From Roseobacter fucihabitans (GTDB lineage Bacteria > Pseudomonadota > Alphaproteobacteria > Rhodobacterales > Rhodobacteraceae): a stretch of DNA of 64,000 nucleotides. A program made the position numbers and the translations under genes. Positions 7,407-55,414 of the stretch are shown in pieces. The stretch is from NCBI RefSeq assembly GCF_014337925.2, contig NZ_CP143423.1, positions 4,432,501 through 4,496,500 of the forward strand, in the 5' to 3' direction. The notes beneath the pieces were generated by a model. The model was given only the letters and a program-made list of their open reading frames with translations, did no database searches and had not been told where the DNA came from. Position 1 is the first letter of the stretch. Each line of letters begins with the position of its first letter.

Positions 7407-7409
7407 GCC

Positions 7410-18327: not shown

Positions 18328-19167
18328 ATGACGCTCCCGAACTATTTCTATGGTGGTCCTCCCAAGGCGGGTTCTTCCTGGATTTACACCCTGCTCAGCA
18401 CGCATCCGGATGTCTTTGTCCCTGATGGTAAATACGTGCAATTCTTCACGGATTTCTACGATCGCGGGATCGATTGGTACGCCCAATGCTACGCGGGCGC
18501 GCGCGTGGATCAGGTGGCGCGGTGTGATCTGACAACGGATTATCTCTTTGTCCCCGAGGCTGCGGAACGGCTGGCACGCCATGTCCCGGATGCGCGGGTT
18601 TTCTTTTCTCTGCGCAATCCGGCGGAGCGCGATTGGTCGGCTTATCAGCATCTTTTGCGTACCGGCCAAGCGCATGGGCCGCTCGAACAGGAAGCGGATA
18701 CCGCGCATCGGCTTTTGTCCACATGCAGCGCTTATTCCGATGCGATTGAGCGCTCATGGCGGCTCTTTGGAAAGGAAAATACCCACATCCTGTGGTTTGA
18801 AGACATCCGCTCGCAACCTCAGGCAGCCGCAGATTCGCTCTTTGATTTTCTGGGTGTCGTACGGCGCGAAATCCCGCAAGCCGACACGGGTGCGAAAAAC
18901 GTCGCACGGGCGGCGCGAAACACCCGGCTGAACGGGGTGCTGAAACAGGGTGCCGTGGCCCTGCGCGCGGCTGGTTTGAGCACCGTTCTGGGGAAATTGA
19001 AATCCAACCCGTTGTTGGATAAGGTTCTGTTCAGCGCGGATCGTGTGCCCAAACTGCGCGACCAACCCGAGGCATGGAATTTTTTAGCGGATCGCCATAC
19101 TGGCGAAATCGACCGGCTTGAAACGCTGCTGGGGCGCGACCTGACGGCTTGGCGGGCGCGCCCGTGA
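18328..19167 (+). CDS. Sulfotransferase family protein (first of two)
   Basis: PAPS-dependent sulfotransferase of about 279 residues. The 5'-phosphosulfate loop is GPPKAGSSWIYTLL at the N-terminus, and the 3'-phosphate motif is FSLRNPAERDWSAY near residue 93. The likely acceptor is the polysaccharide made by the neighbouring genes. Start choice is between GTG 18322 and ATG 18328; neither has a strong ribosome site. The stop overlaps the start of the wzy-like gene as GTGA. Confidence 0.85.
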   Translation: MTLPNYFYGGPPKAGSSWIYTLLSTHPDVFVPDGKYVQFFTDFYDRGIDWYAQCYAGARVDQVARCDLTTDYLFVPEAAERLARHVPDARVFFSLRNPAERDWSAYQHLLRTGQAHGPLEQEADTAHRLLSTCSAYSDAIERSWRLFGKENTHILWFEDIRSQPQAAADSLFDFLGVVRREIPQADTGAKNVARAARNTRLNGVLKQGAVALRAAGLSTVLGKLKSNPLLDKVLFSADRVPKLRDQPEAWNFLADRHTGEIDRLETLLGRDLTAWRARP

Positions 19168-20435
19168 TCGCAACCGCACAGGCGGGCAGGGCGGTGGACA
19201 CCGTTGGACAGATGAGCTGGCGCATCTATATCTTCGCCATGGCGCTGAGCTTTTTTGTGGTGGTCGAACCCGCGCCAACCGATCTGGTTTTTATGGTTGC
19301 TCTGGGCGTTTTCTGTTTCTCGCGCCCGATCAAAACCGCGTTCCTGAACAGTGCCGCGATCATCGGGGTCTTCCTCTATCTGGCGTTCTCGGTGCTGTCG
19401 CTTGCTTTCGTGCAGTATTTTCCCACACTTGCATATCGTGCCGTCGCAATCGAATTCTACATGATCGCGCTCTTCGTCTTGACCGCCTATTTCATGAAAA
19501 CACGCGGCGATGCGGGTTTTGCGACGGTTTTGCTTGCGCTGACCATCGGCGGTGTGATGGCCTCCTTCGTGGCCATCGTTGCGCTGCTCGATCTGATCCC
19601 GAACAGTGATATTCTGTTTCGCGGGGAAGGCGTGCGCTACCGTGTCAAGGCGACGTTCAAGGATCCGAACGTCTTTGGCCCCTTTATCGTCCCCAGCTTG
19701 TTGTTTGTGACATGGGTTGTGGTTGAATCCGCCCGTTTTCGACTTCTGGCGCTCGCGGTCATGGGGCTTTTGCTGTTGTCGCTGTTGTCTACATATTCGC
19801 GCGGGGCTTGGATCCATTCGTTCATTTCGCTCTCGTTTTTTAGCCTCGCCTTGTTGATCTATCGCCCAACCGCCCGCCCGACGATGACCGCGATTGTCTG
19901 GGTGTTCATCGTGATTTGTGGCACGATTCTGTTGTTTCTGGATCAGATCACCGCGCGGCTGGCGGATTCTTTTTTTGCAGAACGTCTCTCGCTGCAAAGC
20001 TATGATACCTCGCGCTTTGGCTATGTCGCCGAAGCCGCCACACTTATTTGGGAACACCCGCTGGGGATCGGCCCGGTTCAGGCGCGTTTTGTCTATGGGT
20101 ATCTGCCGCATAACACCTTTGTTGCCTTTGCGATGCATAACGGGATTTTCGCCTCCCTGGGCCTCATGCTGATTTACGGCGCGGCGATGATGCGGTGCGG
20201 GGTGAAAATCCTCCATCAAAACCCCGGTTGGACGAAATACGCTCTGATCGTTTCGGTGCTACTGGGGCTTTTGGTGTTGATGCAGGTGGTGGGCGCGATC
20301 CACTGGCGTCATCTCTACCTGCTCTGTGGCATGGCTTTCGGCACCTATACCACGGACCGCTTGTTGCCGGATGATTTTGGTTGGAAAAAGCGGCGGCACC
20401 ATCGACGCCATTCATTGGCGCAAGCCAGCAAATGA
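19164..20435 (+). CDS. O-antigen ligase/polymerase (Wzy-like) membrane protein
   Basis: A polytopic protein of about 423 residues with 10 or more predicted hydrophobic segments, short loops and one larger periplasmic loop after about residue 240. It ends with a basic cytoplasmic tail (KKRRHHRRH). The arrangement and the SRGAW motif (STYSRGAWIH) fit Wzy polymerases and WaaL-type ligases. GTG 19164 couples it to the sulfotransferase; ATG 19212 is an alternative. Its neighbour is a Wzx flippase, which favours polymerase over ligase. Confidence 0.82.
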   Translation: MIATAQAGRAVDTVGQMSWRIYIFAMALSFFVVVEPAPTDLVFMVALGVFCFSRPIKTAFLNSAAIIGVFLYLAFSVLSLAFVQYFPTLAYRAVAIEFYMIALFVLTAYFMKTRGDAGFATVLLALTIGGVMASFVAIVALLDLIPNSDILFRGEGVRYRVKATFKDPNVFGPFIVPSLLFVTWVVVESARFRLLALAVMGLLLLSLLSTYSRGAWIHSFISLSFFSLALLIYRPTARPTMTAIVWVFIVICGTILLFLDQITARLADSFFAERLSLQSYDTSRFGYVAEAATLIWEHPLGIGPVQARFVYGYLPHNTFVAFAMHNGIFASLGLMLIYGAAMMRCGVKILHQNPGWTKYALIVSVLLGLLVLMQVVGAIHWRHLYLLCGMAFGTYTTDRLLPDDFGWKKRRHHRRHSLAQASK

Positions 20436-20463
20436 CGTCATCACAGATCGGGACAGTCCTAAA

Positions 20464-21771
20464 ATGAAACGCCTCATGCTTGGAAGTCTGCTTTCCGCCG
20501 GTCTGAAAATCATCAGTGCGGGTCTCAGCTTTTTGATGTTCATGTTCCTCGCGCGGGCATTGGGTCCGGTGGAATACGGGCTTTTTGCCTCGATGTTTGC
20601 GCTTGGCACGGTAGGGGCCATCGTGGCCCTCTTTGGACAACATACGCTCAGCATCAAAACCCTTTCGGCGCTGGGCGAAGGGCCTGGACAGGCCGCCGAC
20701 CGCCGTCAGATGATGCGCCAGGGCTACCGCATTGTGCTGGCGGGGATTTCGCTCGTCATTGCCGTGCTGCTGGGCGGCGGCGCGATCGCGGGTGCCCTGG
20801 GCTTTGATTTGGACATGCGATACCTGATCGGGGCCTGCGCGCTGTTGTTACCGCTCGCGCTCGCGGATCTGGTGTCTCATCAATACCGCGCTTTCGGCTC
20901 GATCTTCTGGGCGCTGGCACCGCGGGACGTGGTGTGGCGCGGCGCGGTAGTTCTGGCCTGTCTCGCGGCGGCGTCACTTCCGTTTTTCTTTGCGAATGCG
21001 CTTGTCGCCATGATGGCCATTTCGGTCACGCTTATGATCATCGTGGCCTTACAGATCATCTCGTCGATCAAAACGCACCGACACCGATTTGCCGCTCCCC
21101 CGGACGTCCAAAACAGCCCAAAGATGCCATGGCGCATCTCGGCCTGGATGTGGCTGGCCTCTCTCGGCACGATGGGGGGGAGCCTCAACCTGTCCGCGAC
21201 CTCGTTGTTTTTGCCCCCCGAACAGATTGGCGCTTATTTCGCAGCGCAGAAAACATCACAGCTGCTGCAATTGCCGATCATTGCTATCGATATCGCCGTG
21301 ACCCCGGTTTTCGCACGGCTGTATAGCCAGAATGACATAGCCGGCCTGCGCAATGTCGGCCGCAATCTGGCGATGCTGGTCGCGATCCCGCTGGCCATCG
21401 GGGCGGCGGTGATCGTGGGCTTTGCACCGCAGCTTCTGGCTTTGTTCGATCCGGCATTTATTTCGGCAACACTCGCCCTGACACTGCTGGCGGGCAGCTA
21501 TCTGGTGATTGGGCTGGGGGGGCCGACGCGGCAACTCATGCTCATGGCTGACGGCGAACGGCAGGTTGTGCGCATGACCCTGATTTCGGAAGCCGTTGGT
21601 CTCGCGCTCATCCCCATCCTGGTGCCGCTCTTTGGCATTTTGGGCGCGGCCATGGCGGCCTGCGTGGCGCGGGTTCTATTTACGATGATGACTGTCCTGT
21701 GGTGCCGCAAGCATCTGAGCGTGGATACATCGGTGCTGTCGCTTGTGCCGGGATTGTCTATCGCGCGCTAG
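20464..21771 (+). CDS. Wzx-like polysaccharide flippase (MOP superfamily)
   Basis: A 435-residue membrane protein with about 12 hydrophobic helices. It starts LMLGSLLSAGLKIISAGLSF and contains FLARALGPVEYGLFAS, the first-helix signature of oligosaccharide flippases. It would move the undecaprenyl-linked repeat unit to the periplasm for Wzy. The ATG at 20464 is chosen because the first transmembrane helix follows directly; the longer frame from 20326 overlaps the wzy gene without homology. Its last 4 bases overlap the converging sulfotransferase gene. Confidence 0.9.
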   Translation: MKRLMLGSLLSAGLKIISAGLSFLMFMFLARALGPVEYGLFASMFALGTVGAIVALFGQHTLSIKTLSALGEGPGQAADRRQMMRQGYRIVLAGISLVIAVLLGGGAIAGALGFDLDMRYLIGACALLLPLALADLVSHQYRAFGSIFWALAPRDVVWRGAVVLACLAAASLPFFFANALVAMMAISVTLMIIVALQIISSIKTHRHRFAAPPDVQNSPKMPWRISAWMWLASLGTMGGSLNLSATSLFLPPEQIGAYFAAQKTSQLLQLPIIAIDIAVTPVFARLYSQNDIAGLRNVGRNLAMLVAIPLAIGAAVIVGFAPQLLALFDPAFISATLALTLLAGSYLVIGLGGPTRQLMLMADGERQVVRMTLISEAVGLALIPILVPLFGILGAAMAACVARVLFTMMTVLWCRKHLSVDTSVLSLVPGLSIAR

Positions 21772-22742: not shown

Positions 22743-23031
22743 GGGCTCTCCGTGTGATGACCGGTTCATCTGCAATGCTCTTGGTCCGATGTCCTGACAA
22801 ATATGCAGCCAGAGTGCCATATCCGGCAAATACCCAGCAAGCAGTGCTGGAGAGCACCGGCTGGGTCAAGCCCTTCACCGGAAATTAGCGCAGTATTCGG
22901 CGGCTTGCCCCGAAATCGAGCGTAATATGGCAAAAACTGGGGTCGTCTGGACTTTGGAGCGCGGCTGTCTCTGGACAAAACGCGCGAAACCGGGTCAGTG
23001 TCTGCGCACGAAACGAGAGGATAGTTTACGT

Positions 23032-24285
23032 ATGAAGACGCGGTCAGTTTCAGGTATCGAGAGCATCTTTTCGCAAGGCGGACGGCTTGTTTTATGGGTT
23101 TTGGCGGTGGGCCTGCTCATCGCAACCACGCTTCCTGCCATGGCACAAACCTATCGGCTGGCACCGGGGGACAGGATCCTGGTGCAAATTATTGTGCTGA
23201 ATAATCAATCTTATGTGGGAACGGTCGACACAGCTGGTGACTTACGTTTACCCTACCTTGGGACGCATCAGGCGGCGAATAAAACACTGGACGAACTGGC
23301 GCAGGAGATCGCGCTTTCGGTTGCGGGCCGCCAGATCCAATCGGTCCGCGATGGGGTCACTTCCGTGATCGTTCTGGATGAAAAAGATATCTTTCTGGAT
23401 ATCGAAACATATCGCCCTGTGACCGTCGTTGGGGCCGTGGCATCGCCGGGTCGTGTGGATTTTGTTCCCGGTCTGAGCGCGCGTGCGGCGATTGGATCAG
23501 CAGGCGGCACGGCTTTGGCCGGGCAAACCGAGCGGGTCGACCAACTGGCGAATTTCCGAACCCGTCAGGCTGAATTGCGTGAAACCGAAGCCTGGCTGGC
23601 GGCGGAGCTTTGGCGCATGGATGTCTTATTGTCCGGCGCATCAAGCTCTTCGCCCATCGAGGGAGATTTCCAAATCGCAGCGGACCGTCTGGATGAAAAA
23701 GACATCGAAGGCCTGCGAGAATTGATCGACGGCGCGCGGGGTGCCCTGGAGCGCGAGCAGCAGGACAATGAGGCGAAATTGGCGTTGACCCAAAAGCGGG
23801 TTACATTTCTTGAGACTGCGTTGGAGCAGTTCACCACTGCATCAGAGATCGAAGAGGAGCGGTTGCAGGATATCCTGCAATTGTCGGATCGCGGGCTGGT
23901 GACGGCCAATGCCCTCGATAATGCCCGCGAAGGGGCGTTGAATGCCTCATCGCGGTTGCTGACAACGCAGGCGGATCTGGCTGCGGCAGAGCGCGAGTTG
24001 CAATCGCTGGTTATTGAAAAGCAGGGTCTGCAAGAAGATTTCGATCAAACGCTGCGGGATGAGCGGGCCCGATTTGAGCGCGATTTTGATGAGGCCAAAG
24101 CACGCCTCAACAGCCTCAACCGCGAACTTGCCCTTGGAACGCTGACCGATGACGATGAGGTGTTGGCGGAGCTTACTTTCTTGCTGCACCGTCAGACCAG
24201 GGGTGGTGAGGTCACAATAGAGATATTGCCAAGCGAGCTTCTGAAACCGGGTGATGTTATCGAGGTGCTGGTGAGCTATAATTGA
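23032..24285 (+). CDS. ExoF-like polysaccharide export protein
   Basis: About 417 residues. A signal peptide ends near AMAQ (residue ~40), followed by a polysaccharide-export domain (YRLAPGDRILVQI) and a SLBB-type fold (VTVVGAVASPGRVDFVPGLS). A long coiled coil spans roughly 175-370 (LEREQQDNEAKLALTQKR and beyond). This mix of an outer-membrane exporter domain with a co-polymerase-like coiled coil is that of ExoF of Sinorhizobium. The ATG at 23032 gives a proper signal peptide; an upstream ATG at 22927 does not. It would pair with the Wzc-like protein at 16-18 kb. Confidence 0.85.
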   Translation: MKTRSVSGIESIFSQGGRLVLWVLAVGLLIATTLPAMAQTYRLAPGDRILVQIIVLNNQSYVGTVDTAGDLRLPYLGTHQAANKTLDELAQEIALSVAGRQIQSVRDGVTSVIVLDEKDIFLDIETYRPVTVVGAVASPGRVDFVPGLSARAAIGSAGGTALAGQTERVDQLANFRTRQAELRETEAWLAAELWRMDVLLSGASSSSPIEGDFQIAADRLDEKDIEGLRELIDGARGALEREQQDNEAKLALTQKRVTFLETALEQFTTASEIEEERLQDILQLSDRGLVTANALDNAREGALNASSRLLTTQADLAAAERELQSLVIEKQGLQEDFDQTLRDERARFERDFDEAKARLNSLNRELALGTLTDDDEVLAELTFLLHRQTRGGEVTIEILPSELLKPGDVIEVLVSYN

Positions 24286-25757: not shown

Positions 25758-25844
25758 GCCGGAACCGCCTCGCCGGTGCGGGGCCGTAACGTCAATCCGC
25801 AAAACCACCTTTGATATGAACCAAGATTGACGAAAGACCTCCCG

Positions 25845-26969
25845 ATGCCGGACCCTTTGAATATCGCGCTTGTGCTTGAAACCTCCGGCGGGGGATCGGG
25901 GCGTCATGTCCTGGATTTGGCGGAGGGCCTTGCGGAGCTGGGCCATCGCGTGACGGTGATCTGGTCGCCGGTCCGCGCCCAGGATGATTTTCGCACGCAA
26001 TTGATGGCGCTGGACAAGGTTGCGAACCTGCCGCTGGAAATGCACCGCGCGGTGGGTCTGGCCGATTACTCCAGCCTGCGCGCCCTGGCGGGGTTGCTGC
26101 GAACGCAAGGGCCGTTTGATGTTCTGCATGGCCATAGTTCCAAGGCGGGTGCGCTTGTTCGGCTGTTACCACGTGCGATTCCCGGCGCGCGTATCTACAC
26201 GCCCCATGCCTTTCGCACGATGGACCCGACAATGGGCGCGCGCGGGGTCAGGGTCTATGGCACCATCGAACGCCTGCTGGCCGGGCGCGCCGACCGGATC
26301 ATCGCTGTCAGCGCGGCGGAAAAAACCCATGCCATCGGCCTCGGGATCAACCCGGCGAAGCTGACGACCGTGGTGAATGGTGCCAGCTTACCGCCCGGTG
26401 CAGATCGAGAAAAAGCGCGTGATGTTATGGGCTTGACCCAAGAAGATGTCGCGGTGGGTTTCATTGGTCGGCTTGATGACCAGAAAGCCCCGCTTCGGTT
26501 TGTACAAGCGGTCCATTTGGCCGCACAGACATTCCCGAACCTGCGCGGCGTCGTTATTGGGGACGGGCATCTGCGCGCCGCCTGCGAAGCGCAAAACGGT
26601 GGAGATACCGTTCGGTTTCTGGGTTGGCAGGATGGACCGGCGCTGTTCCCCGGTCTCGACGTTTTTTGCATGACAAGCCATTATGAGGCCATGCCCTATA
26701 CGTTGATCGAGGCCTTGCATGCCGGTGTGCCGATTGTGACGACCAGGGTGGGCGGCGTTGAGGAAACCGTGTGTGAGGGTAAAAACGGCTTCGTGTTAAG
26801 CGCCGATTGCACAGCCGAAGACCTGGCGGAGCGTTTGGCGGGCCTGGCCGAAAACGCCAAGCTGCGCGCGGAGTTTGGCGCGGTGTCGCGGGCATTAGCG
26901 CGCGATCGGACGGTGGAAACAATGGTCAGGGAAACGATCGCGGTCTACGATGCCGCCCGCCACCCCTAA
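25845..26969 (+). CDS. Glycosyltransferase, GT4 family
   Basis: About 374 residues in two Rossmann-like domains. The N-terminal glycine-rich motif is TSGGGSGRHVLDLAEGL; the C-terminal domain has GRLDDQKAPLRFVQA and the catalytic/donor segment SHYEAMPYTLIEALHAGVPIV (the EX7E motif of retaining GT-B enzymes). It would add a sugar to the lipid-linked repeat unit. The ATG at 25845 fits the family start; a TTG at 25827 is in frame. A clear terminator follows the stop. Confidence 0.9.
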   Translation: MPDPLNIALVLETSGGGSGRHVLDLAEGLAELGHRVTVIWSPVRAQDDFRTQLMALDKVANLPLEMHRAVGLADYSSLRALAGLLRTQGPFDVLHGHSSKAGALVRLLPRAIPGARIYTPHAFRTMDPTMGARGVRVYGTIERLLAGRADRIIAVSAAEKTHAIGLGINPAKLTTVVNGASLPPGADREKARDVMGLTQEDVAVGFIGRLDDQKAPLRFVQAVHLAAQTFPNLRGVVIGDGHLRAACEAQNGGDTVRFLGWQDGPALFPGLDVFCMTSHYEAMPYTLIEALHAGVPIVTTRVGGVEETVCEGKNGFVLSADCTAEDLAERLAGLAENAKLRAEFGAVSRALARDRTVETMVRETIAVYDAARHP

Positions 26970-27022: not shown

Positions 27023-29410
27023 TTAGGTCGCGGTGACGGAATACGCGCCTGCTTTGGGGGCTGCGCCCCGCGCCAGCCCGCTGATGTCCGTCGCAAACGG
27101 CCCGCTCGTATGGGCGGCGTTCACCACCGCGCTCACCGGGGATCCGGGCGATAGTGACAGATCTGGTGGCGTTGCCTTTGGACCTACAAAGAGGGGATCT
27201 ACGCCGATCGCGTTGCTGTGCACGCTAAAGCCCGGTTTTCCGTCAAAGGTATTAATAGTGCGCACTGCCGCCGTATCGTTCCAGACGATATTACCGGTGA
27301 AATCGAAATCGCTCACAACGCCCGCCGCTTCGAATTCGGGATCAGACCAGCCAGACAGGTTCAGGTCCCGACCGCTCTCCATCCGGTTTGCGTTATAGAC
27401 GGTGTTGAAGCGGATCCGGATATTGGAGATTATCCCGTTCGGCCCGTCCTTTTGAGGGTGACGCTGGCAATAAATGCCGGCGGCTTGCGTGTCCCAGACC
27501 AGATTGTTGTAGACATCGATATTGGCCAAGGTTTGAACGAATTCGCCGATGCCTTGCTGCGCGGTGAATGTATCGTATGGCACCGAAGTAGATCCGGCTT
27601 CACGCGCGAGCACGATGCCAAGATGACAGGCCCAGACCTGGTTATTATAAATCGCCACGTCTTCGACATAACGCCGCCCGGAATCCAGATAGATGCCATA
27701 TCTTTTGACGTTCCAGACCCGGTTGCCGTAAATCGCGCCGCCCTTGACGCCTGCCTTGTAGTCAATCCCGTATTGGCGCGTGTCATGCACATCGTTGAAC
27801 CGGGTGATGATGTTGCTGCACCCGCTGGTGACGCTGATACATTCGTCCACGCCGCCGGGAACGCCCTGGTTATTCGTGATGTTGTTGTTGTAGCGCGTGA
27901 TCACGTTGCTGGCGGAGCAGTCGTTGTTCTCAATCAGTATATCATCCGTGCGCATCTTGGTGTCGGATGTCTCCGCAAGGGGCAGAAGGGTGTCTGAATT
28001 CTGGCCGTTAATTGCGATGCTGGAAGAGCCGGTGTTGTAGATTTGGTTGTCCGCAACCACGTGGTGACCGTGTTGCTTGCCCGGTGTCCCGATCACGAAG
28101 ATGCCAGCCCGCCAAACGTTACGAATTGTCAGATTGCGAATGTGGACGTGATCCTGCGCGCGCATATAGATGCCGTCGCGCGTTTCTTCGGATTGCACCT
28201 CTGGTGCGCCAAAAACAGAATTGCCATCGATTGTCCCGCTCGGCGGGGTCAGATCACCCTCGATAATAGCAAGATGCTCTTCGCCAGGTAGAGTGTTGAT
28301 TGTGATGGGGTTGCTGACTGTGCCGCTGGCCGTGATTGCAAAAGGGGAATACACACCGGGACGCAGGTAGATCGTATCACCCGGCAAAGCCGCCGCAAGG
28401 GCCCCTTTCGGCGTGGCAAAAGGCGAGCCAAATGCGCCCGAACCGCTGTTGTCATCGCCCCAGGGAGCGACATAGAGAACGAGGGGATCGGCGGTATAAA
28501 CGGTACGGCGGGACCGCGCGCTGCCAGAGGCCACATCCATTTGGATTTGACGTCCAGAGACACCACCCGCTTTGCGGCAGGAAAAATACCCAAAAACCGC
28601 ATCCCCCACAAGACGCGCAACGGCTTTCGTGGCATCGTTCTGTGCGGTCAATGTCACCGCGTGATGCCCGACATCTGTGGGCAATCGCGTGAAGGGAAAT
28701 GGCGCACCGGCGTCGGGCGGCGTGAACAGCCTCAGATCGCTGCCAGCACCCTTGATTTCATAGCGCAGCGTATAGGCGGTGCCAGTCTCCAGTGGTGAGG
28801 TAAGCGCGGAAATCGCGATCCCGTCACCGCGAATATGGCCGGGTTCACGGTTTTGAACCAATTCCGGATGTGCGGTACCGGCGGGAAGGTTCATGCCCCA
28901 TTCCGCTTTGCGACATGAAATAGAGCCAAAGGTCAAATCACCGTTCACGCGCAGAATTGCGTTGGTATCAGTGTCTTCTGCTACGACGAGAATTTTGTGA
29001 CGCCCCAGCGTATGCCCTGTGACGGTCGAGTATGGAAAAGGCGATCCACCGCCTTCGGGAAAGAATAAGCCCGCCGTGCCGCCATCCGCGATGATATCAT
29101 AGGACACCAGATAAAGCGCGCCAACCTCGAGCGGCTCGATCAGGGCCGAGACGACTTTCCCATTGCCAGTGACGCGCCCGGGCGTTGGATTAGCCGCAAG
29201 CTGGGGGCTGCTGGCGTCCACGACATCCTCCAGGAAGGACTGCCCATCAATGCTGAGAACATTGAGGGCCAGTTCATCCATAGAGCCTGATGGAATCCGC
29301 TGCATTTTCAACTTGAACTTGGTGTCAGAAAGATATGTGCTCACCCCCAGCGACCGGGCCCGGCTCGGAGCACCGCCGGCAACTGCGCCGATTGTGAAAG
29401 CGCCCATCAT
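27023..29410 (-). CDS. ghsB: GTA head-spike fibre protein, right-handed beta-helix (GhsB-like)
   Basis: A 795-residue protein. After a short N-terminal attachment region (to about residue 50) come two tandem ~105-residue beta-sandwich-like repeats, each ending in a SCRKA box (near 163 and 270). From about 300 a right-handed parallel beta-helix begins (VLYVAPWGDDNSGSGAFGSP, AALPGDTIYLRPGVY) and runs to the end. This is the architecture of phage tail-spike and pectate-lyase-fold proteins. Its identity as GhsB rests on the overlapping upstream gene, which matches the spike base of the Rhodobacter capsulatus gene transfer agent. GhsB spikes bind capsule polysaccharide of recipient cells. Polysaccharide-cleaving activity is possible but unproven. 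Confidence 0.8.
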   Translation of the reverse strand: MMGAFTIGAVAGGAPSRARSLGVSTYLSDTKFKLKMQRIPSGSMDELALNVLSIDGQSFLEDVVDASSPQLAANPTPGRVTGNGKVVSALIEPLEVGALYLVSYDIIADGGTAGLFFPEGGGSPFPYSTVTGHTLGRHKILVVAEDTDTNAILRVNGDLTFGSISCRKAEWGMNLPAGTAHPELVQNREPGHIRGDGIAISALTSPLETGTAYTLRYEIKGAGSDLRLFTPPDAGAPFPFTRLPTDVGHHAVTLTAQNDATKAVARLVGDAVFGYFSCRKAGGVSGRQIQMDVASGSARSRRTVYTADPLVLYVAPWGDDNSGSGAFGSPFATPKGALAAALPGDTIYLRPGVYSPFAITASGTVSNPITINTLPGEEHLAIIEGDLTPPSGTIDGNSVFGAPEVQSEETRDGIYMRAQDHVHIRNLTIRNVWRAGIFVIGTPGKQHGHHVVADNQIYNTGSSSIAINGQNSDTLLPLAETSDTKMRTDDILIENNDCSASNVITRYNNNITNNQGVPGGVDECISVTSGCSNIITRFNDVHDTRQYGIDYKAGVKGGAIYGNRVWNVKRYGIYLDSGRRYVEDVAIYNNQVWACHLGIVLAREAGSTSVPYDTFTAQQGIGEFVQTLANIDVYNNLVWDTQAAGIYCQRHPQKDGPNGIISNIRIRFNTVYNANRMESGRDLNLSGWSDPEFEAAGVVSDFDFTGNIVWNDTAAVRTINTFDGKPGFSVHSNAIGVDPLFVGPKATPPDLSLSPGSPVSAVVNAAHTSGPFATDISGLARGAAPKAGAYSVTAT

Positions 29411-29673
29411 CAGTAAAGCCCCACGATCCCGGAGGCCGTTGTGCCGGTTGTATGCACCTGCTTACAGCGCAGCGGATACATCATGCCCGGTTGCACGGCG
29501 GTCAATGTGACGGTCTGGCCATGGGCCATGGTGACGGTCAGGTTGCCCTCACCACCGACGTATAAAGCGCGCGTGACATGGGTCAGCGGTGCAGTGTCAT
29601 CTGGGGAGATTTGAAAGGCACCGAAGGCAGGTGCGTTGAGACCGGGGCTGTGGCGTTCAAATGGATCAGACAT
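29410..29673 (-). CDS. ghsA: GTA head-spike base protein (RCAP_rcc01079/GhsA family)
   Basis: A small beta-rich protein of about 87 residues. The order DPFERHSPGL, FQISPDDTAPLTHVTRALYVGG, LTVTMAHGQTVTL and a C-terminal TGTTASGIVGLY matches the spike base family named after R. capsulatus rcc01079. It forms the head-proximal part of GTA spikes. The ATG at 29673 follows AAAAGAGTG; a GTG two codons earlier is possible. Its stop overlaps the ghsB start (TGATG), so spike base and fibre are made together. Confidence 0.85.
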   Translation of the reverse strand: MSDPFERHSPGLNAPAFGAFQISPDDTAPLTHVTRALYVGGEGNLTVTMAHGQTVTLTAVQPGMMYPLRCKQVHTTGTTASGIVGLY

Positions 29674-29865
29674 GTTCACTCTTTTTTTCAGGAAGGTTGA
29701 CGTATTCGGCGCTCAGTTATGAACAAATGAACCTTGTCAAACCGCCAAGATGTCGGGCGGCCCCTTAAGAGTTTTTTGAGATTTGAAAGGACAAAAATAC
29801 CGATACCGCGCGCGTTCAGACGCTGTATTGGATCGGTTCGCCGTCAAAAGGTGGCGGTGGGTCGG

Positions 29866-30798
29866 TTATCCGGCGGGATCAAAGATCCGTTCAATGACCT
29901 CACAAAGCGCGTTGAGCTGCGATAAATCCGCCGGTACCATCAGATCATAGACCGGCGCATTGGCGACCACCGCGCCACAGCGTTTCAGGTGCAATCCCAG
30001 GTGTTCGCGGCCCAGACGGGTTTCGCCGTATCGCGCCATGAAAGTATAGCGCATGACCATCTGGAGCGCCTCATGGGCGGGGCGGGGGATCACGCTTGGG
30101 CTTATGACATCCGCGCTGCGCCGCAGGACAAAAAGCCCGCCCATCGGTACGGGATGCGTGGCGAGCGGTGTGGGCATGCGCTTTTGTACCTTTTGCACGC
30201 TGGGGTGGATCAGCCGATCCCCTTCATCCGCTTTGAGCGCGAGGGCTTCAACGGTGTCGGGCCAGAGTTTCATGCTGGAAAATCCCGGCCAGACCACTGG
30301 GGCGGGCACCTCGGTCAGCGTGCGATCCACCGCCACCAGATCATCCGTGATTGGCACATGCCCGCGCGCCAGGAGGGCCGCATTGGTGGTGGATTTTCCG
30401 GCACCCTTATCGCCCAAAAACAGGGCAGCGCGGTTATTCACTGAAACGGCGCTGGCGTGCAGGCAGAGGATGCCACGCCTCTCGAGTACCAGCGAGATCA
30501 CCAGCCCCAGAAAAGCCTGCGACAGCAGATGATCCGACACGCCCTCCTGGGGTTCGACCAGAACCGTGTTTGGGTCCTCAATGATGAATGTGCCAACGGC
30601 TTTCCAGTGCAGGAATTGGCGTTCCGGCTGGATATCGAAATAGGGGTCAAAGGCCGGTGGCGCGTCGGGATGAATGCCTGCCCGGCGCTTGACCTTTAGG
30701 GTGTTCGCATGCGCCACAGGCGGAATCGGATCGAGCACATCGAACATAAACTCAGAGGCAAGCGTCAGCCCGAATACTGAATAATAATGCTGTGTCAT
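29866..30798 (-). CDS. HPr-kinase-like lasso peptide kinase
   Basis: A 310-residue P-loop kinase of the HprK-related type. The ATP loop is GDKGAGKSTTNAAL near residue 129, LHASAVSV lies just before it, and ITDDLVAVD carries the acidic metal/catalytic pair. Homologues in lasso-peptide clusters such as paeninodin (PadeK) phosphorylate the C-terminal serine of the precursor. The precursor here also ends in serine. It is the last gene of the lasso operon, overlapping the synthetase stop (TGATG). A classical HPr kinase role is unlikely in this context. Confidence 0.85.
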   Translation of the reverse strand: MTQHYYSVFGLTLASEFMFDVLDPIPPVAHANTLKVKRRAGIHPDAPPAFDPYFDIQPERQFLHWKAVGTFIIEDPNTVLVEPQEGVSDHLLSQAFLGLVISLVLERRGILCLHASAVSVNNRAALFLGDKGAGKSTTNAALLARGHVPITDDLVAVDRTLTEVPAPVVWPGFSSMKLWPDTVEALALKADEGDRLIHPSVQKVQKRMPTPLATHPVPMGGLFVLRRSADVISPSVIPRPAHEALQMVMRYTFMARYGETRLGREHLGLHLKRCGAVVANAPVYDLMVPADLSQLNALCEVIERIFDPAG

Positions 30799-32681
30799 CA
30801 GATCAGCACTCCTTTGGTTTGTGCATCGCGCCAGTGCTCAAAAGCGGCGACCCAGTGGAGCAGCACGGCCAGCCGCCAGAGCGCGCGGATCGCGGCCACG
30901 TCGGTTATGTCGCCTGCGATGACCTGCGCCCGTAGCTGTTCGGCCTGCGCAATATCCACGAAATCAGCGAGAGATGCGAAAACACTTGCATCTTTATCAC
31001 GATAAAACGCCAGGACGGTATCCCCCAACTCCTTGCCGAACTCTGCCTTATCCGCGCGCAGGCGGATTTTATCGGGCAAAAGGCCCTGCATGGCCTCTCG
31101 CAGCGCCCACCGGCTGCGCCCGTCGCGCAGTTTCATATCCGCCGGGAAAGACAGGCAGAGCGCCAGAACACGCCGGTTCAAAAACGGGTAGCGCGGCAGA
31201 ACCCCCGCGGCGGTGGCAGAGCGGTGCAGAACTTCAAAAGAGTGAATGATCAGCGGATCGGTCAGGGATTTCAAATGTGTGATGGTCGCGGCATTCTGGA
31301 AATCCGCCTTGGTCTTGAGAACCGGATCGGGCCTGTAGCGCGTTTCCGCATTTACCTGTTTGCGCAGATCGGGTGCAATGAGAGCCGTGACACTGCCGGA
31401 CCAATTCGACACCAGCCTGTGCTGTGACAAGAGGCGGGCGATCTTCATCAGGACCCGGCGCAGCGGATGTCTTGGCCGCAACCCGCCATATCGCGCGATA
31501 TTGCTTGCCACCAGTGCCAATAGCGGGACGCCGTGCACTTGCGCAGCACCGCGGGCTTCGCGGAACAGTGATGCGAAACGCCGCGCGGCTGCAAGTTCCA
31601 CAAGACGGCCATAGCCATGCGAAATCGCTTCGTCACCGCCATGCCCATCGATCAGCACATCGATGTTCAAGCCGCGTGCTTCGGTATATATCTGCCTGCT
31701 TTTCGGCAAACCGGGGGCGAGAAAAAGATCCATCTGTTCGGTAACAACCGATCCCAAGGTCTCAAGCGGGGTTCCAGCGGTGATCGGAATTTTGTGAGGC
31801 AGCGTTTTGAACGCCGCATTTGCCACATCGATATAGGGCGTTTCATCATAGGTTTTGTCGGACCCATAGACGAAGGACAGGGTTTGAAAATCGGGCATCC
31901 GCTCTGCGGCCAACCCCGCCAGCGCGGAAGAATCAAGCCCACCGCTGAGCATCGCGCCTGATTTTACATCGGGGCGCAGACAGGCCGCCGTAGCCTCAGA
32001 GAGAGCAGCGCGCAGATCGCCCGGTGCATTTGTGCCACCATAAGCGTGTGGTATGTCCATCTGCCAGTAACGATCGACCGCTACCCCGGTGGATGTCGGT
32101 CGCAGCGCATGGGCAGGAGGCAGACGCAGGAGCGCATCAAAGGCCGTCTGCGCCAGATCAATTTCCTCACCCTGGATGAAATCCGCAATACGCAGCGGAC
32201 AAGGATCAAGGTCCATGCCGGCAAGATGCATGCAAGCGCGCAGATCAGAAGCACAGCTCAAAGCCCCATTCTGCACGGAGTAATAGAGCGGATAGAGGCC
32301 GATCTGATCGCGATAGGCCTCAAAGGCACCTGTTTTCAGGTCTATAAAAACAACCGAAAAGGACCCGGCGACCGCTACGGCAAACTCTGGGCCATCGGCC
32401 AGGCGCAACTCTAGCAGAAGCTGCAAGTCCGACTGCGTGCTACCATGGGTCAACCCAAGGCGGGTTTCTACGGCACCGCGATCTTCCAGAAACACCAAAC
32501 CAACGGCGCTCCAATCCGCGCTCTGGCAGGTCTCTGCGGCACCGCAGATCGCAACATCCACTCCGGGCCTTGGTGTTCGAACGTCCCAACGGTGATCGGC
32601 CATCCGTATCAGGCGCGCCGGTACGATCGGGGGCGGTGTGGCACCGGCCAGAGGTATCCGGACAGCAAAGGCGTGTGTCAT
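30798..32681 (-). CDS. Lasso peptide macrolactam synthetase (asparagine synthetase-like, C protein)
   Basis: A 627-residue enzyme that adenylates the Asp/Glu side chain of the precursor and closes the macrolactam on Gly1. The C-terminal synthetase domain has the PPi loop LSGGLDSSALAG near residue 245. The N-terminal glutaminase-like domain lacks the Cys2 nucleophile (the protein starts MTHAF), as expected for lasso C proteins, which do not use glutamine. The start overlaps the B2 stop by 4 bases and the stop overlaps the kinase start. Confidence 0.9.
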   Translation of the reverse strand: MTHAFAVRIPLAGATPPPIVPARLIRMADHRWDVRTPRPGVDVAICGAAETCQSADWSAVGLVFLEDRGAVETRLGLTHGSTQSDLQLLLELRLADGPEFAVAVAGSFSVVFIDLKTGAFEAYRDQIGLYPLYYSVQNGALSCASDLRACMHLAGMDLDPCPLRIADFIQGEEIDLAQTAFDALLRLPPAHALRPTSTGVAVDRYWQMDIPHAYGGTNAPGDLRAALSEATAACLRPDVKSGAMLSGGLDSSALAGLAAERMPDFQTLSFVYGSDKTYDETPYIDVANAAFKTLPHKIPITAGTPLETLGSVVTEQMDLFLAPGLPKSRQIYTEARGLNIDVLIDGHGGDEAISHGYGRLVELAAARRFASLFREARGAAQVHGVPLLALVASNIARYGGLRPRHPLRRVLMKIARLLSQHRLVSNWSGSVTALIAPDLRKQVNAETRYRPDPVLKTKADFQNAATITHLKSLTDPLIIHSFEVLHRSATAAGVLPRYPFLNRRVLALCLSFPADMKLRDGRSRWALREAMQGLLPDKIRLRADKAEFGKELGDTVLAFYRDKDASVFASLADFVDIAQAEQLRAQVIAGDITDVAAIRALWRLAVLLHWVAAFEHWRDAQTKGVLI

Positions 32682-33109
32682 GAGGGCGTTTCGGTTTTAA
32701 GCGGTGTCGGCAGGTCGAGGATTTTGTTGAAATCGGTCACCGTTCCCTCATCCCCTTCAAGAACCACGTGATCGTTCCAGCTCAACCAGGCATGGGCTTT
32801 GAGGGCGCCGTGTTGGTCTTTCTTCAAGCCCATCGTGATCGTGGATGGGATCCCTTTCCAGGACAGGATCGCCTGACAGGAAATGGTTTGCGTCAGGCAA
32901 CTGGCGTCGGGAATCAAGCGTGCAATATGGGCCACGGCATGGGTAATGCGAGCCACTGTCGCGCGCCGTTCATATTGTGGATCAGCCGGGCAGGCCTGGA
33001 CAAGAGCCGCGCGGATACGTTGGTATTTCGTGATCCAGAGCCCAATACGAACCACAAGGATAACGAGAAAACTGATACCATAGATTCCCGCCCATCGGAT
33101 GGCCCGCAT
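32678..33109 (-). CDS. Lasso peptide leader peptidase (B2, transglutaminase-like cysteine protease)
   Basis: A 143-residue protein that removes the leader from the lasso precursor. The papain-like triad is visible as Cys71 (DASCLTQTIS), His106 (KAHAWLSW) and an acidic residue in the following WND segment. An N-terminal hydrophobic helix (YGISFLVILVVRIGLW) may anchor it to the membrane beside the exporter. It is read 3 bases after the B1 stop and overlaps the synthetase start. Confidence 0.9.
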   Translation of the reverse strand: MRAIRWAGIYGISFLVILVVRIGLWITKYQRIRAALVQACPADPQYERRATVARITHAVAHIARLIPDASCLTQTISCQAILSWKGIPSTITMGLKKDQHGALKAHAWLSWNDHVVLEGDEGTVTDFNKILDLPTPLKTETPS

Positions 33110-33112
33110 GCG

Positions 33113-33400
33113 CTAGTCGGTCCCGGCAGGTGCGATATCGATCACTTGCGCTTCGAGCATCTGCGCCAAAAGCCCCTCGATATCCGGGCGACACTGAGAT
33201 TCCGAGACCGCGAATTTTTTGGTTACAACGGTCACAAGATCATGGAGGGTTCGGGGTTCTGAAAGAGACAGCCAAAGCGTCGAGGCGGTCGCATTCATGG
33301 TGAAATACGTGTTTGTCTGGAGGTGCATCAACGCGCGGTCACCCCCGATATCACAATCAACCACATCTGCTTGGGCGATATAACGAGGGTCAGATGACAT
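33113..33400 (-). CDS. Lasso peptide leader-recognition protein (B1, PqqD-like RRE)
   Basis: A 95-residue PqqD-fold protein that binds the leader peptide and hands it to B2 and C. It has the expected pattern of IGGDRALMHLQTNTYFTMN (beta strands with the family NxTxxxLN-like turn), a central helix TLWLSL and a C-terminal helical bundle. The ATG at 33400 is preferred over a TTG two codons earlier. It lies 317 bases after the precursor gene. Confidence 0.88.
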   Translation of the reverse strand: MSSDPRYIAQADVVDCDIGGDRALMHLQTNTYFTMNATASTLWLSLSEPRTLHDLVTVVTKKFAVSESQCRPDIEGLLAQMLEAQVIDIAPAGTD

Positions 33401-33448
33401 AAACAAAAATCCACTTTCGGCTTATCCGGATCAAAGCCCTATCACTAG

Positions 33449-33547
33449 AGCACTTCTCGGAAAACATGAGACACAGCATATCCCCTAAATCATTGAAATC
33501 CCTGATTTCAGGCAGGCTTAAGTGATTCAGGTTTTTCCGAAAGTGCT
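33449..33547. repeat. 99-bp inverted-repeat (MITE-like) element between precursor and B1
   Basis: Near-perfect 17-base terminal inverted repeats, AGCACTTCTCGGAAAAC at the left and the complement of AGCACTTTCGGAAAAAC at the right (one-base slip). A second internal hairpin (GAAATC-CCT-GATTTC) lies at 33495-33509. The size and structure fit a miniature inverted-repeat element. It sits in the transcribed leader of B1. No other full copy was seen in the window. Confidence 0.6.
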
Positions 33548-33648
33548 ATAATAATTAACACGATGCCACACTGGAAATACACCACTGCGACAACAAAAGT
33601 TTCAAGAGGGTTTAGGGTTTATTCCCATGGCACCATCCTGAAAATGAA

Positions 33649-33673
33649 CCGGGGCCCGAAAAACGGACCCCGG
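33649..33673 (-). terminator. Stem-loop immediately downstream of the lasso precursor gene
   Basis: A 10-pair GC-rich stem (CCGGGGTCCG against CGGGCCCCGG, one G-T pair) with a TTTTT loop, 45 bases after the precursor stop. Only a weak T tract follows (TTCATTTTC). Comparable stem-loops after precursor genes are common in lasso operons and raise precursor mRNA relative to the enzyme mRNA, by partial termination or by protecting the 3' end. Confidence 0.65.
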
Positions 33674-33717
33674 AATAATTTATACGATTCGAACGCTCAA
33701 AGACCGTCCGTAACGTA

Positions 33718-33858
33718 TTATGACAGAGTTATATCTGCGAATGGTGTGCCGACTGGAAATGCGGCGTCCAGGGATGTACCTGTCGAGCCACCTTTGGTTA
33801 CGGCTTCTACTTTGCCGTGGGACCGCAGGACTGGCGCTTCGTAAATAGCTTTAGTCAT
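33718..33858 (-). CDS. Lasso peptide precursor, 46 residues
   Basis: Precursor of a ribosomally made lasso peptide. The 22-residue leader has the full YxxPxLxxxGxxxxxT motif, with Tyr6, Pro9, Leu11, Gly15 and Thr21; Thr21 is at the required penultimate leader position before Lys22. The predicted core has 24 residues. The ring would be GGSTGTSLD, closing Gly1 to Asp9, and the 15-residue tail holds Phe12, Phe18 and Pro residues as plugs and ends ITLS. The C-terminal serine is the residue phosphorylated by lasso kinases. AAAGGAG lies 5 bases before the ATG. Its downstream neighbours are B1, B2, C and kinase, and an ABC exporter lies upstream. Confidence 0.93.
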   Translation of the reverse strand: MTKAIYEAPVLRSHGKVEAVTKGGSTGTSLDAAFPVGTPFADITLS

Positions 33859-33886
33859 GACTTCTCCTTTTGCGTTAACCGATAAT

Positions 33887-33948
33887 AGTTAAAACTCGTT
33901 AACTATATCAGTTTTAGGTATGTTATCTCAAGAGTTTTCAAGAGTTTT
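33887..33948 (-). promoter_or_regulatory. Putative lasso precursor promoter with operator-like repeats
   Basis: On the minus strand a -35 TTGAGA (33926-33931) and -10 TATAGT (33902-33907) are separated by 18 bases. A perfect inverted repeat AGTTAA-N6-TTAACT (33887-33904) overlaps the -10 and start site. A tandem 10-base repeat (AAAACTCTTG twice, 33929-33948) covers the -35. This suggests a regulated promoter of its own for the precursor gene. Confidence 0.55.
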
Positions 33949-34003
33949 ATGCTGACTATTTTGACAAATCACGCGTTTTGCCCGGTTTTTAACATGTTTT
34001 GAT

Positions 34004-35827
34004 CTAAGATCGGTAACCTCTTCCCTGGCGCTCAAACATTTCGGCATAACGACCATTCTGACGGATCAGCTCTTCATGCGTGCCTTCTTCGGCGATTCTA
34101 CCGTTGTTCAGCACGTAAGTGTAATCCGCCTGCCGGATCGTGGAAAGCCGATGACTGATGACTAACGCCCCGCGGCCTTCCAGTTTTTCGCGGAACCCGT
34201 CGAATAATTCAGCCTCTGCGTTTGGATCAATTGCGCTCGTGGGTTCATCCAGAATGATGAATTTCGAGTCAGGAAAAATTGCACGGGACAGGGCGATTTT
34301 TTGCCATTGGCCGCCGCTGAGTTCCACACCGCCATCAAACATGCGTGACAGAACGGTATCGTATTTATGGGGCAATTCTTCCAAAACCTCATGGGCACCG
34401 GTGAGGCGCGCGGCTTTTTCCAGCCGCGCCGCGTCGCTGTCCCGACCCAGATCGGACAGGCGCATGTTGTCGCGTCCCGTATAGGCAAATTGCGCAAAGT
34501 CCTGAAAAATCACGCTGAACTGGCGACGGTAAGCGATGGGATCGAAGGATCGCACATCTTCTCCATCATAGGTGACCGCGCCCTCCTGCGGATCATAAAG
34601 ACGGCAGAGAAGTTTGATCAATGTGGTCTTCCCAGATCCGTTGCCGCCGACCAGAGCGGTAAATTGACCGGGTTTGATCTTGAGGGATACATTGCGCAGC
34701 GCGGGGCGCTCTGATGCCGGATAGGAAAATGTTACATCCTCCAGAACCACACCTGCCTTTGCGACAGCCGGGAGCGGCTTTGGGGTGGTGTCCGGTTTCA
34801 TCACCGGCTCCAGATCCAGAAAGGTGAACAATTGGGTCAAAAACAGCTGGTCATCATAGAGCTTGGACAGGCTGGTGACGAAATCGCGCCCCGCCGTTTC
34901 CGCCCGTACCAGCAACAGGACCACCATGATCAGATCTGAAAGCTCTGCCTGACCTGTGCTGAAACGATATAGAATGAAGGCCGCGGAAGCCAGAACAACC
35001 AAGGTGCCAACCACGGACACAAGGCTTTCGGCGATGGATTTGCGGCGTTCGATATCCAGGTAATCTTTGCGGACGACCTTGCGGATGTTCATATATTGCG
35101 CGCGCAGATAGGCACCGATGTCCCATAAGCGGATTTCCTTGGCGAAGGGTTGGGCTGTCATGACCCAATCCGCATAGGAGGCATGACGTTCTTTCTGCAC
35201 CAGCCTGCGTTGCAAGTGGAACCGCTGGCGGGTGAAGCGGACCTGAACCACCAGCATCAATCCGACCGCGATCAGGCTGATCGGTAACAGGCGCCATTCG
35301 ACGAAAAACAAAACGACCGCGATCCCGAGGAGCATCATCCCGCCCCTGAAAACATTCAGAGCGTTGGAAATGACCTGTGCCGGGCGTTGCGCTCCGGCCT
35401 GTCGTGCTCGCTCCAGTGTGTCATAATAGAGCGAGCTGTCATAAAAGCTCAGGTCTGCCGCTACGGCGCGTTCCTGTATCGCACGATTGACATAGTCGCT
35501 GACGATGAAGCCCTGCGCGGCGCGGAAGTAATTTGCCAGGGAGTGCATGATCCGCCCGCCCAGAAAGAGGGCCAGAACGACAACGACCGATCCCATGACG
35601 CGTGCGAGGTCGATGTCGGTCTCAACCTTGGCGGTCTGCGCAATGTCTTCGACGGCGAGTTTCACCGCGAACAGAGCGCCGAGTGTGAGCGCGATTTCGA
35701 AGAGGGAGGCCACAAAAACAAAGATGCCCAAGCGTTTATCGCTGAATTTCAACAACGCGATCACCTTGCCCCACAGGACAAAGGAGCGTGATAACTTGTC
35801 GCTTAGAGAGACCGTCTTGGATGACAT
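34004..35827 (-). CDS. ABC transporter, lasso peptide exporter (D protein)
   Basis: A 607-residue half-transporter with six transmembrane helices in the first ~320 residues and one ATPase domain. Walker A is GGNGSGKTT near residue 390, the signature LSGGQWQK near 503, and Walker B FIILDEPTSAID near 525, followed by an ISHR H-loop. It exports the mature peptide and would confer self-immunity. It is upstream of the precursor gene in the same direction; 145 bases with a promoter lie between them. No isopeptidase or TonB receptor gene accompanies the cluster. Confidence 0.85.
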   Translation of the reverse strand: MSSKTVSLSDKLSRSFVLWGKVIALLKFSDKRLGIFVFVASLFEIALTLGALFAVKLAVEDIAQTAKVETDIDLARVMGSVVVVLALFLGGRIMHSLANYFRAAQGFIVSDYVNRAIQERAVAADLSFYDSSLYYDTLERARQAGAQRPAQVISNALNVFRGGMMLLGIAVVLFFVEWRLLPISLIAVGLMLVVQVRFTRQRFHLQRRLVQKERHASYADWVMTAQPFAKEIRLWDIGAYLRAQYMNIRKVVRKDYLDIERRKSIAESLVSVVGTLVVLASAAFILYRFSTGQAELSDLIMVVLLLVRAETAGRDFVTSLSKLYDDQLFLTQLFTFLDLEPVMKPDTTPKPLPAVAKAGVVLEDVTFSYPASERPALRNVSLKIKPGQFTALVGGNGSGKTTLIKLLCRLYDPQEGAVTYDGEDVRSFDPIAYRRQFSVIFQDFAQFAYTGRDNMRLSDLGRDSDAARLEKAARLTGAHEVLEELPHKYDTVLSRMFDGGVELSGGQWQKIALSRAIFPDSKFIILDEPTSAIDPNAEAELFDGFREKLEGRGALVISHRLSTIRQADYTYVLNNGRIAEEGTHEELIRQNGRYAEMFERQGRGYRS

Positions 35828-35986: not shown

Positions 35987-36664
35987 TCAGCGACCGGTCG
36001 CACCCAAGATCGAGAACCCCGTCATGGCGATCAGTCGGATATCGGTAAAAAGGGATAGATCGTTGGAGTAATCGACATCGAACTGTACGCGCTCGGAATA
36101 TGACACGTCATTGCGCCCTGAGACCTGCCACAGACCTGTAATACCGGGCGTCATGGACAGATAAACCGGGCGGTGGATACCATATTTGTGCAACTCGACG
36201 CGCACAATCGGTCGCGGACCGACAAAGCTCATATTCCCGCAAATGACATTCCAGATCTGCGGAAGTTCATCAAGGCTGGTCTTGCGCAGGAAGTTGCCCA
36301 GGCGCGTAATCCGAGGATCATCATTCAGTTTGTGGTCTTGTGCCCATTCTGCGGCGGCTTCTGGATTATTCTCAAGATGTACGCGCAGTTTCTCTTCTGC
36401 ATCCACAACCATGGTCCTCAGTTTCCAGCACCTGAAAACCTTTCCATCACGCCCGACCCGTCTGTGACCGAAGAACCCCGTGCCACCATCGCGTTTTGTC
36501 AAAACCCACAGCAGGGCTATGATCGGTACGACAAGTGGCAAAATGATGAGTGCCAAAATCAGGTCAAACACGCGCTTTCCTGCGCGTCTGTAGATTGCGA
36601 CACCGCCGCCTAGTTCAGAGAACACTTTTGATTTTTCAGACTCTTCCAAATGGAATGCGGTCAT
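35987..36664 (-). CDS. Undecaprenyl-phosphate sugar transferase, ExoY/WbaP-type
   Basis: A 225-residue initiating transferase of exopolysaccharide synthesis. It has one N-terminal membrane helix (VFDLILALIILPLVVPIIAL), the KLRTMVVDAE segment, DPRITRLGNFLRKTSLDELPQ with the catalytic Asp-Glu region, and GPRP and PGITGLWQVSGR motifs at the C-terminus. It is separated from the other polysaccharide genes by the lasso and GTA-spike genes, but likely primes the same polymer. It is transcribed toward the lasso exporter with a 159-base gap. Confidence 0.92.
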   Translation of the reverse strand: MTAFHLEESEKSKVFSELGGGVAIYRRAGKRVFDLILALIILPLVVPIIALLWVLTKRDGGTGFFGHRRVGRDGKVFRCWKLRTMVVDAEEKLRVHLENNPEAAAEWAQDHKLNDDPRITRLGNFLRKTSLDELPQIWNVICGNMSFVGPRPIVRVELHKYGIHRPVYLSMTPGITGLWQVSGRNDVSYSERVQFDVDYSNDLSLFTDIRLIAMTGFSILGATGR

Positions 36665-37533: not shown

Positions 37534-37969
37534 CAAAATCCAATCGTAAAAACTCAGCGGAAAGATTAACATAACCTTAACATCCGATCCAATGTTTTTG
37601 CGGATTGTCGGTTTTGGTCGAAAAGTCAAGCGGTTGGAGCAAAGTAAGCAAGCTACGCCACTTGCGATACTTGGAATCAGTTTGCTCGAAACTTTCCCAT
37701 TTTTTGCTGAGCTTGGCACATGGCACCAAGGCGCGCTTCACTAAATACCGACAAATTTTGTACTGCTGCTGGAAAAATCTAACGAAACGCCGCTCAATCT
37801 TCGCAATGCGGGCCAGACGCGATTAAATGACATGACGCTAGGTTTTTGCCATCCAGAGGTCTGTGGTGCTTATTCAATTCCTGGAAAACGCCAACTAGGA
37901 CCTGTTGACGTTCGGGATTCCCAAATCATCTGACTTCTGCTTCAAGATTGCAAACATTGGGGAGCAGCC
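37534..37969. other. Gene-free spacer ending at an IS5-type left end
   Basis: About 435 bases with no supported gene. The first part should carry the promoter of the VPIPP protein. The last ~70 bases (from GACCTGTTGACGTTCGGG near 37900) look like the left end of the IS5-family element whose transposase fragment follows. Confidence 0.4.
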
Positions 37970-47421: not shown

Positions 47422-47448
47422 TTTTTTTGACCTTTTTGTAGTTTTCGT

Positions 47449-55410: not shown

Positions 55411-55414
55411 CTAT

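Follow-up and report, generated by a model that had tools for sequence, protein, structure and literature searches.

A candidate class II lasso peptide cluster with a putative C-terminal-serine kinase in a polysaccharide setting of Roseobacter fucihabitans

What does a short gene set among peptide-processing, export and kinase genes produce, and what may its position among polysaccharide genes mean? These questions are raised by a 64-kb stretch of Roseobacter fucihabitans DNA (contig NZ_CP143423.1; the whole stretch is called the window, and positions are counted from its start), in which a preliminary description had placed a lasso peptide cluster in the minus-strand order D, A, B1, B2, C, K. 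Every coordinate of this order was borne out. D (34004..35827) is an ABC exporter by Pfam and lies upstream of A (33718..33858), the 46-aa lasso precursor, which is followed by B1 (33113..33400), a PqqD-like leader-binding (RRE) protein, B2 (32678..33109), a leader peptidase with a Transglut_core3 domain, C (30798..32681), an asparagine-synthetase-like lasso cyclase, and K (29866..30798), an HprK-like kinase proposed to act on a C-terminal Ser. The sequence comparisons described here support the view that the A cluster specifies a class II lasso peptide, as yet uncharacterised, from the group whose kinases act on the C-terminal Ser; its own last residue probably bears a phosphate.

In the translation of A, the leader occupies residues 1-22 and the predicted core (GGSTGTSLDAAFPVGTPFADITLS) residues 23-46. 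Tyr6, Pro9, Leu11, Gly15, Thr21 and Lys22 of the leader precede Gly23, so that the YxxPxL...G...T motif, Thr at position -2, Gly1 and Asp9, all of which had been claimed for this peptide, are present. The 24-residue core contains Gly1 and Asp9 and lacks Cys, and B1/B2 and C stand beside A, as in class II lasso peptide clusters. The precursor had been called previously hidden, a claim that finds no support, as the public NCBIfam model lasso_leader_L3 already finds it (26.0 bits; cut-off, 19). When 295 genomes were searched, homologous precursors were found at E ≤ 1e-4 in 8 same-family genomes besides the window's own. Comparison with L066, an uncultured Roseobacter, revealed 35 nucleotide differences in A, of which 5, 2 and 28 fell on codon positions 1, 2 and 3 (nonsynonymous divergence dN, 0.079; synonymous divergence dS, 2.35), and A was the best-kept protein of the cluster (87% identity, versus 60-80% for the other cluster genes). 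Since A has homologues and is under strong purifying selection relative to L066, it is a real gene, and a chance open reading frame (ORF) was ruled out. A second precursor in the gap between A and B1 was also considered and rejected, as the six-frame list of ORFs of at least 30 aa held no minus-strand ORF in 33407-33717. No sequence relative of A was found in the PDB at E ≤ 10. The recomputed monoisotopic mass of the lasso is 2263.10 Da ([M+2H]2+, 1132.56) and that of its singly phosphorylated form is 2343.07 Da (2+, 1172.54), both agreeing with the values calculated earlier; the peptide is thus a ready genome-mining target with exact masses. The earlier claim that the core is uncharacterised fits the absence of the string GGSTGTSLD from the literature searched, which included neither patents nor lasso databases. 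Although the lasso class is known, this peptide sequence appears to be new in this bacterial group.

The residues that would carry the chemistry were examined in 13 distinct loci (the window, L066, L015, L016, L017, L018, L063, L019, L020, L021, L022, L061 and L067); the scan of named genomes gave nine loci, including those of Cereibacter johrii, C. changlensis, Asticcacaulis endophyticus and L066. The counts leave out L068, which holds the precursor of L067, and L062, L064 and L065, which lie on the contigs already counted as L015, L017 and L016, respectively. Also left out were L069 (Acidimicrobiaceae; 42% over part of the query, with cores ending in Phe), L010-L014 (E 0.03-0.09) and L023, a wider stretch around L014. 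The core has 24 residues at 12 of the 13 loci and 26 in L022. Asp9 is invariant in all 13 cores and is the sole Asp or Glu at core positions 7-9 in each, and the C-terminal Ser is likewise invariant (13/13). Because both residues are invariant, ring closure is predicted on Asp9, as the preliminary description had proposed, and the C-terminal Ser is the likely phospho-acceptor (Ser24 in the window). Core residue 1 is Gly in 12 of the 13; Gly5 is kept in every 24-residue core and, by alignment A1, in L022; the usual core tail is FPxGTPxxDLTFS. The YxxP leader was seen in all nine rows of alignment A1, the window included.

Two peptides found during this comparison are recorded in their own right. 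The same-family precursor of A. endophyticus (L067, 8001-8135) has a predicted core that begins with Asn, which is unusual for macrolactam closure. A peptide at 6936-7172 of L023 (genome G051), approximately 65 kb from the lasso cluster of that genome, shares the lasso-type leader and ends in the tail CDYTFS; its Gly/Trp-rich core has no Asp or Glu at positions 7-9, which makes normal ring closure impossible. At E ≤ 0.01, profile A1 gave matches in 12 of the 385 genomes of the class; one was the window's own, and the other 11 lay at 3.5e-4 to 0.0099. A GTPxxDLTFS-type tail was not seen in the wider stretches of four of these 11 (L057-L060). L057 and L058 carry a lasso-leader-like match adjoining an HprK-like kinase, with no recognised B2 or C nearby, and in the L058 genome a stop lies inside the matched stretch.

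Does K have the features of a lasso peptide kinase? Its score against Hpr_kinase_C was 27.5, below the cut-off of 33.3. The AlphaFold model of K had a mean predicted local distance difference test score (pLDDT) of 89.3, and its comparison with the PDB gave matches to PEPCK (best E 3.9e-7; query template modelling (TM) score, ca. 0.5) and to HPr kinase structures (query TM score, ca. 0.3), the TM scores being modest. All 21 aligned kinases share the catalytic residues H114, K135 and D153, and all but one also have D152. Inside the P-loop (GDK, GNK or ADK), Lys at position 131 of the window's K is common to the 11 kinases of the precursor family, and this position is Ser in six further same-family kinases (L050-L055). 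The H-K-D-D residues are required in lasso kinases according to mutagenesis (PMC9266682), and published kinases of this type add phosphate, in some cases several times, to the terminal Ser of their precursors (PMC9266682, PMC8498205). The phosphorylation envisaged in the preliminary description thus survives the comparison, with H114, K135, D152 and D153 of K intact. Separately, kinase loci of other alphaproteobacterial families (L106, L108, L109, L110, L114, L116 and L117) hold small peptides with a WxxP leader and a terminal Ser; a loose pattern that also gave many chance matches singled them out, and they may form a second group of kinase substrates, with a Trp leader.

The processing proteins were examined in the same way. 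B1 exceeded the Pfam PqqD cut-off, scored 44.8 against lasso_PqqD_Bac (below the cut-off of 80) and matched the sequence of TbiB1 in the PDB (5v1u; E 5e-7). B2 scored 72.7 against lasso_biosyn_B2 (above the cut-off of 33), and among 13 aligned proteins, the window's included, C71 is kept in 13 and H106 in 12. The best NCBIfam match of C was the lasso cyclase model, with 262 against a cut-off of 525; Pfam Asn_synthase was above its cut-off, and the SGGLDS ATP motif is kept in 10 of 10 aligned proteins, again including the window's. From the gene content, the intact catalytic residues, the selection on A and the invariant Asp9 and C-terminal Ser, all of which are observed, we infer the chemical steps and the export as follows. 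B1 would bind the YxxPxL leader, a role established for its family. K, by analogy with PadeK, ThcoK and SyanK, would phosphorylate the precursor on Ser24 before folding. B2 would cleave after Lys22, directed by Thr at -2, and C would activate Asp9 and join it to Gly1, giving a ring of 9 residues that encircles the tail; D would then export the product. We consider it very likely that the operon yields, by this scheme, a class II lasso peptide with an Asp9-Gly1 ring, phosphorylated on Ser24 by K, exported by D and free of sugar.

The absence of sugar from this scheme comes from a comparison with the relatives. A hidden Markov model (HMM) was built from four PF14907 (NTP_transf_5) proteins and applied at E ≤ 1e-3 to frames open for at least 80 aa. 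PF14907 genes lie beside A in 11 of the 11 relatives outside the pair formed by the window and L066: this model found them in L015, L016, L017, L018, L063, L019, L020, L021, L061 and L067, and a weak match in L022 was confirmed as PF14907 by Pfam. The same model gave no match in the 64-kb window or in 16 kb of L066, a negative that covers these stretches and not the rest of the window's genome, which leaves the sugar-free product less certain. In L061, PF14907 is fused with a GT2 domain in a single 743-aa ORF next to the lasso precursor (5254-7482, minus strand), and by coordinates a GT2-like gene adjoins the PF14907 gene in L015, L016, L017, L018, L063, L020 and L021, so that GT2 is fused to or adjoins PF14907 in 8 of 11 relatives. 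In L019 the GT2-like gene is ca. 2.8 kb away, in L067 it is not adjacent, and in L022 none was found near PF14907 with the queries used. The pseudomycoidin nucleotidyltransferase has been linked to a hexose on phospho-Ser (PMC9266682), and therefore the products of the relatives are predicted to be phospho-glycosylated. With no PF14907 in the stretch examined, the window product is predicted to be phosphorylated (mono-, perhaps polyphosphorylated) and not phospho-glycosylated. A bolder idea, which we regard as improbable, is that the C-terminal phosphoserine serves in this alphaproteobacterial family as a sugar handle: the kinase, PF14907 and the adjoining or fused GT2 would join the lasso to a glycan, perhaps the exopolysaccharide of the surrounding loci, and the window lineage, having lost PF14907, would stop at phosphate or use another enzyme, for example the neighbouring WbaP-type transferase. 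In that case the matrix would carry knotted, protease-proof peptides.

The setting of the operon may bear on the biological role of the cluster. On one side of the operon lie genes for a Wzc-like polysaccharide co-polymerase (15944..18016, minus strand) and, on the plus strand, a Wzy-like protein of the O-antigen ligase family (19149..20435; 31.6 bits, the Pfam cut-off being 31.7), a Wzx-like flippase (20326..21771; MatE and Polysacc_synt, both below Pfam cut-offs), a Wza-like polysaccharide export protein (22927..24285) and a GT4 glycosyltransferase (25827..26969). On the other side, ca. 160 bp upstream of D, lies a WbaP/WcaJ-type polyprenyl-phosphate sugar-1-phosphate transferase gene (35987..36664, minus strand). 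Genes of PF02397, PF02563 and PF02706 were mapped throughout 13 genomes, 11 of which had enough contig around A; G132 (cluster split over contigs) and G147 (6.8-kb contig) were left out. At least one of the three families lies within 10 kb of A in 11 of 11 genomes, whereas 0.29 would be expected (P 1.6e-18 on the assumption of independent genomes, which does not hold). Among the relatives, the polysaccharide genes vary in order and orientation. For a control, lasso-B2 matches were collected in 26 of 394 genomes (27 places, 9 in the precursor family and 18 outside), with PF02706 alone, not PF02397 or PF02563, counted in the control genomes. PF02706 (Wzz) lies within 20 kb in 9 of 11 members of the precursor family, compared with 4 of 18 other lasso-B2 loci from the same taxonomic family (Fisher p 0.0026). 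In Bacilli, clusters for paeninodins and for linear polyphosphorylated peptides (LPPs) are reported to lie frequently near capsular polysaccharide loci, and the roles of both are said to be unknown (PMC13381572). In the portions of the literature searched, a link between lasso peptides and polysaccharides was found for Bacilli only, with no alphaproteobacterial report. The steady link to sugar-polymer export genes in this bacterial group therefore appears to be new; it and the absence of PF14907 go beyond the preliminary description. An alphaproteobacterial parallel to the capsule setting of Bacilli makes a tie between the product and the matrix testable in named strains (Cereibacter, Asticcacaulis), and it is this recurring association with polysaccharide genes that merits further study.

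Is the setting functional, or are polysaccharide loci mere insertion hot spots, with the lasso an ordinary narrow-spectrum antimicrobial? Chances are about even for the latter, which concerns function and is compatible with the phosphorylated lasso proposed above. Several points weigh against a special tie to polysaccharide. The control itself includes four loci near Wzz by Pfam (G120, G116, G772 and contig 114 of G132), or 5 of 18 by our own HMMs with weak matches included; other lasso-B2 loci are thus also near Wzz, and this locus type may therefore attract such clusters generally. The Wzz density, computed for the precursor family's own genomes, would give ca. 2% per genome, or 0.20 of 11. 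The window's Wzz match is below the Pfam cut-off, so that the strict count is 8 of 11 (p 0.011), and the P-value treats related genomes as independent. Our own HMMs gave 0 of 30 in further kinase loci, a figure biased by their having been built from the family's loci; the Pfam counts are cleaner. Of these 30 loci, L050, L051, L052 and L055 overlap the control loci L168, L159, L161 and L173, and a single genome supplied several. On the other side, a mere hot spot does not readily account for 9 of 11 versus 4 of 18, even by the strict count, and the core tail is conserved across genera, which argues against the antimicrobial reading. Such a conserved tail is less expected of a fast-changing bacteriocin.

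The site of phosphorylation invites a second alternative, namely that K acts on ring Ser3, as BsfK of Bradymonas does in the established case of BsfA (PMC10368454). The window core has Ser3, and this residue is a conceivable acceptor. Position 3, however, is variable (Ser in 8, Thr in 3, Ala in 1 and Gly in 1 of the 13 cores), unlike the C-terminal Ser, and BsfA ends in Asp, leaving BsfK no C-terminal Ser to use (PMC10368454); phosphorylation on Ser3 thus seems improbable for the window. Other observations also weigh against the C-terminal assignment or the scheme as a whole: Thr16 and Thr22 are invariant as well in all 24-residue cores, precursor-like peptides at some kinase loci elsewhere (L059, L060 and L118) lack a terminal Ser, and neither K nor C reaches the curated cut-off of its closest NCBIfam model. 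It is highly improbable that the product is an uncyclised, linear phosphopeptide like the LPPs of Bacilli, which share the HprK-like kinase, RRE, exporter, YxxP leaders and proximity to capsule loci, since LPP clusters are reported to lack a macrolactam cyclase (PMC13381572) and the window has intact C and B2 motifs and an invariant Asp9.

Further features of the operon and its surroundings accompany the Ser24-phosphorylated lasso assignment. A promoter-like site with an extended -10 (TTGAGA-18-TATAGT; 33902..33931, minus strand; consensus match only) lies 5' of A, and AAAGGAG, a ribosome-binding-like sequence, is found just 5' of A. The start of B1 is the ATG at 33400, two codons inside a TTG-start ORF. 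A strong terminator-like hairpin with a 10-bp stem (33649..33673, minus strand) between A and B1 could set the level of A above that of B1-B2-C-K. With loops of 3-8 and no more than one mismatch allowed, a simple search script scored such a hairpin 3' of A at 4 of the 13 loci. It overlooked at least that of L067, which does fold, and on this count a conserved attenuator is doubtful though conceivable. D lies 3' of K in relatives with both genes on the contig, except L066, and 5' of A instead of after K in the window and L066. In L066, all genes from the sugar transferase through the beta-helix protein stand in the same order as in the window.

The next gene after K encodes a spike base protein of the RCAP_Rcc01079 family (29410..29679, minus strand), the sole match to this family in the genome, and adjoins a beta-helix protein gene (27023..29410, minus strand). 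This pair (27023-29679) is syntenic in L066 (12057-14629) and resembles the pair of head-spike proteins in the gene transfer agent of Rhodobacter. A protein at 36691-37719 (minus strand) with a VPIPP...-type C-terminal hydrophobic segment had no Pfam or NCBIfam match; it resembles a PEP/VPLPA-CTERM surface protein. A PhyR-type response regulator and an HWE/HisKA_2 histidine kinase at 46615-49941 are assumed to be a general stress response pair, and an HlyD-like protein followed by two ABC transporter proteins in a row (51857-57049, minus strand) is likely to be a type I secretion set.

How does the cluster compare with known systems? Pseudomycoidin (PsmK and PsmN, the latter presumably a PF14907 member) bears a C-terminal phospho-Ser, and the window's relatives carry PF14907 beside A; the window and L066, in contrast, have no nucleotidyltransferase gene in their 64 and 16 kb, respectively, and a hexose is not predicted. 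On sequence grounds, the cluster appears to work like that of paeninodin, but its YxxP leader and the lack of a nucleotidyltransferase in the stretch examined set it apart from the paeninodins in the strict, Bacillota sense. The paeninodin core also differs from that of the window. The paeninodin system of Paenibacillus dendritiformis, with PadeK/ThcoK, is also of class II and has precursor, processing, export and kinase genes, an H-K-D-D kinase and a C-terminal Ser acceptor (PMC9266682, PMC8498205), whereas paeninodin-like leaders of Bacillota, another phylum, are nearly always WxxP (PMC13381572). The LPP systems (PMC13381572) resemble the window in the features given above and differ in having no cyclase and in the removal of the leader by a signal-peptidase-type enzyme. 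BsfA/BsfK of Bradymonas sediminis also combines a lasso precursor, an HprK-like kinase and split B1/B2; it has Ile at -2, a C-terminal Asp and the phosphate on Ser3 (PMC10368454), unlike the window, with Thr at -2 and a C-terminal Ser. SyanA/SyanK of Sphingobium yanoikuyae is likewise proteobacterial, with a lasso precursor whose C-terminal Ser is (poly)phosphorylated by the kinase (PMC9266682).

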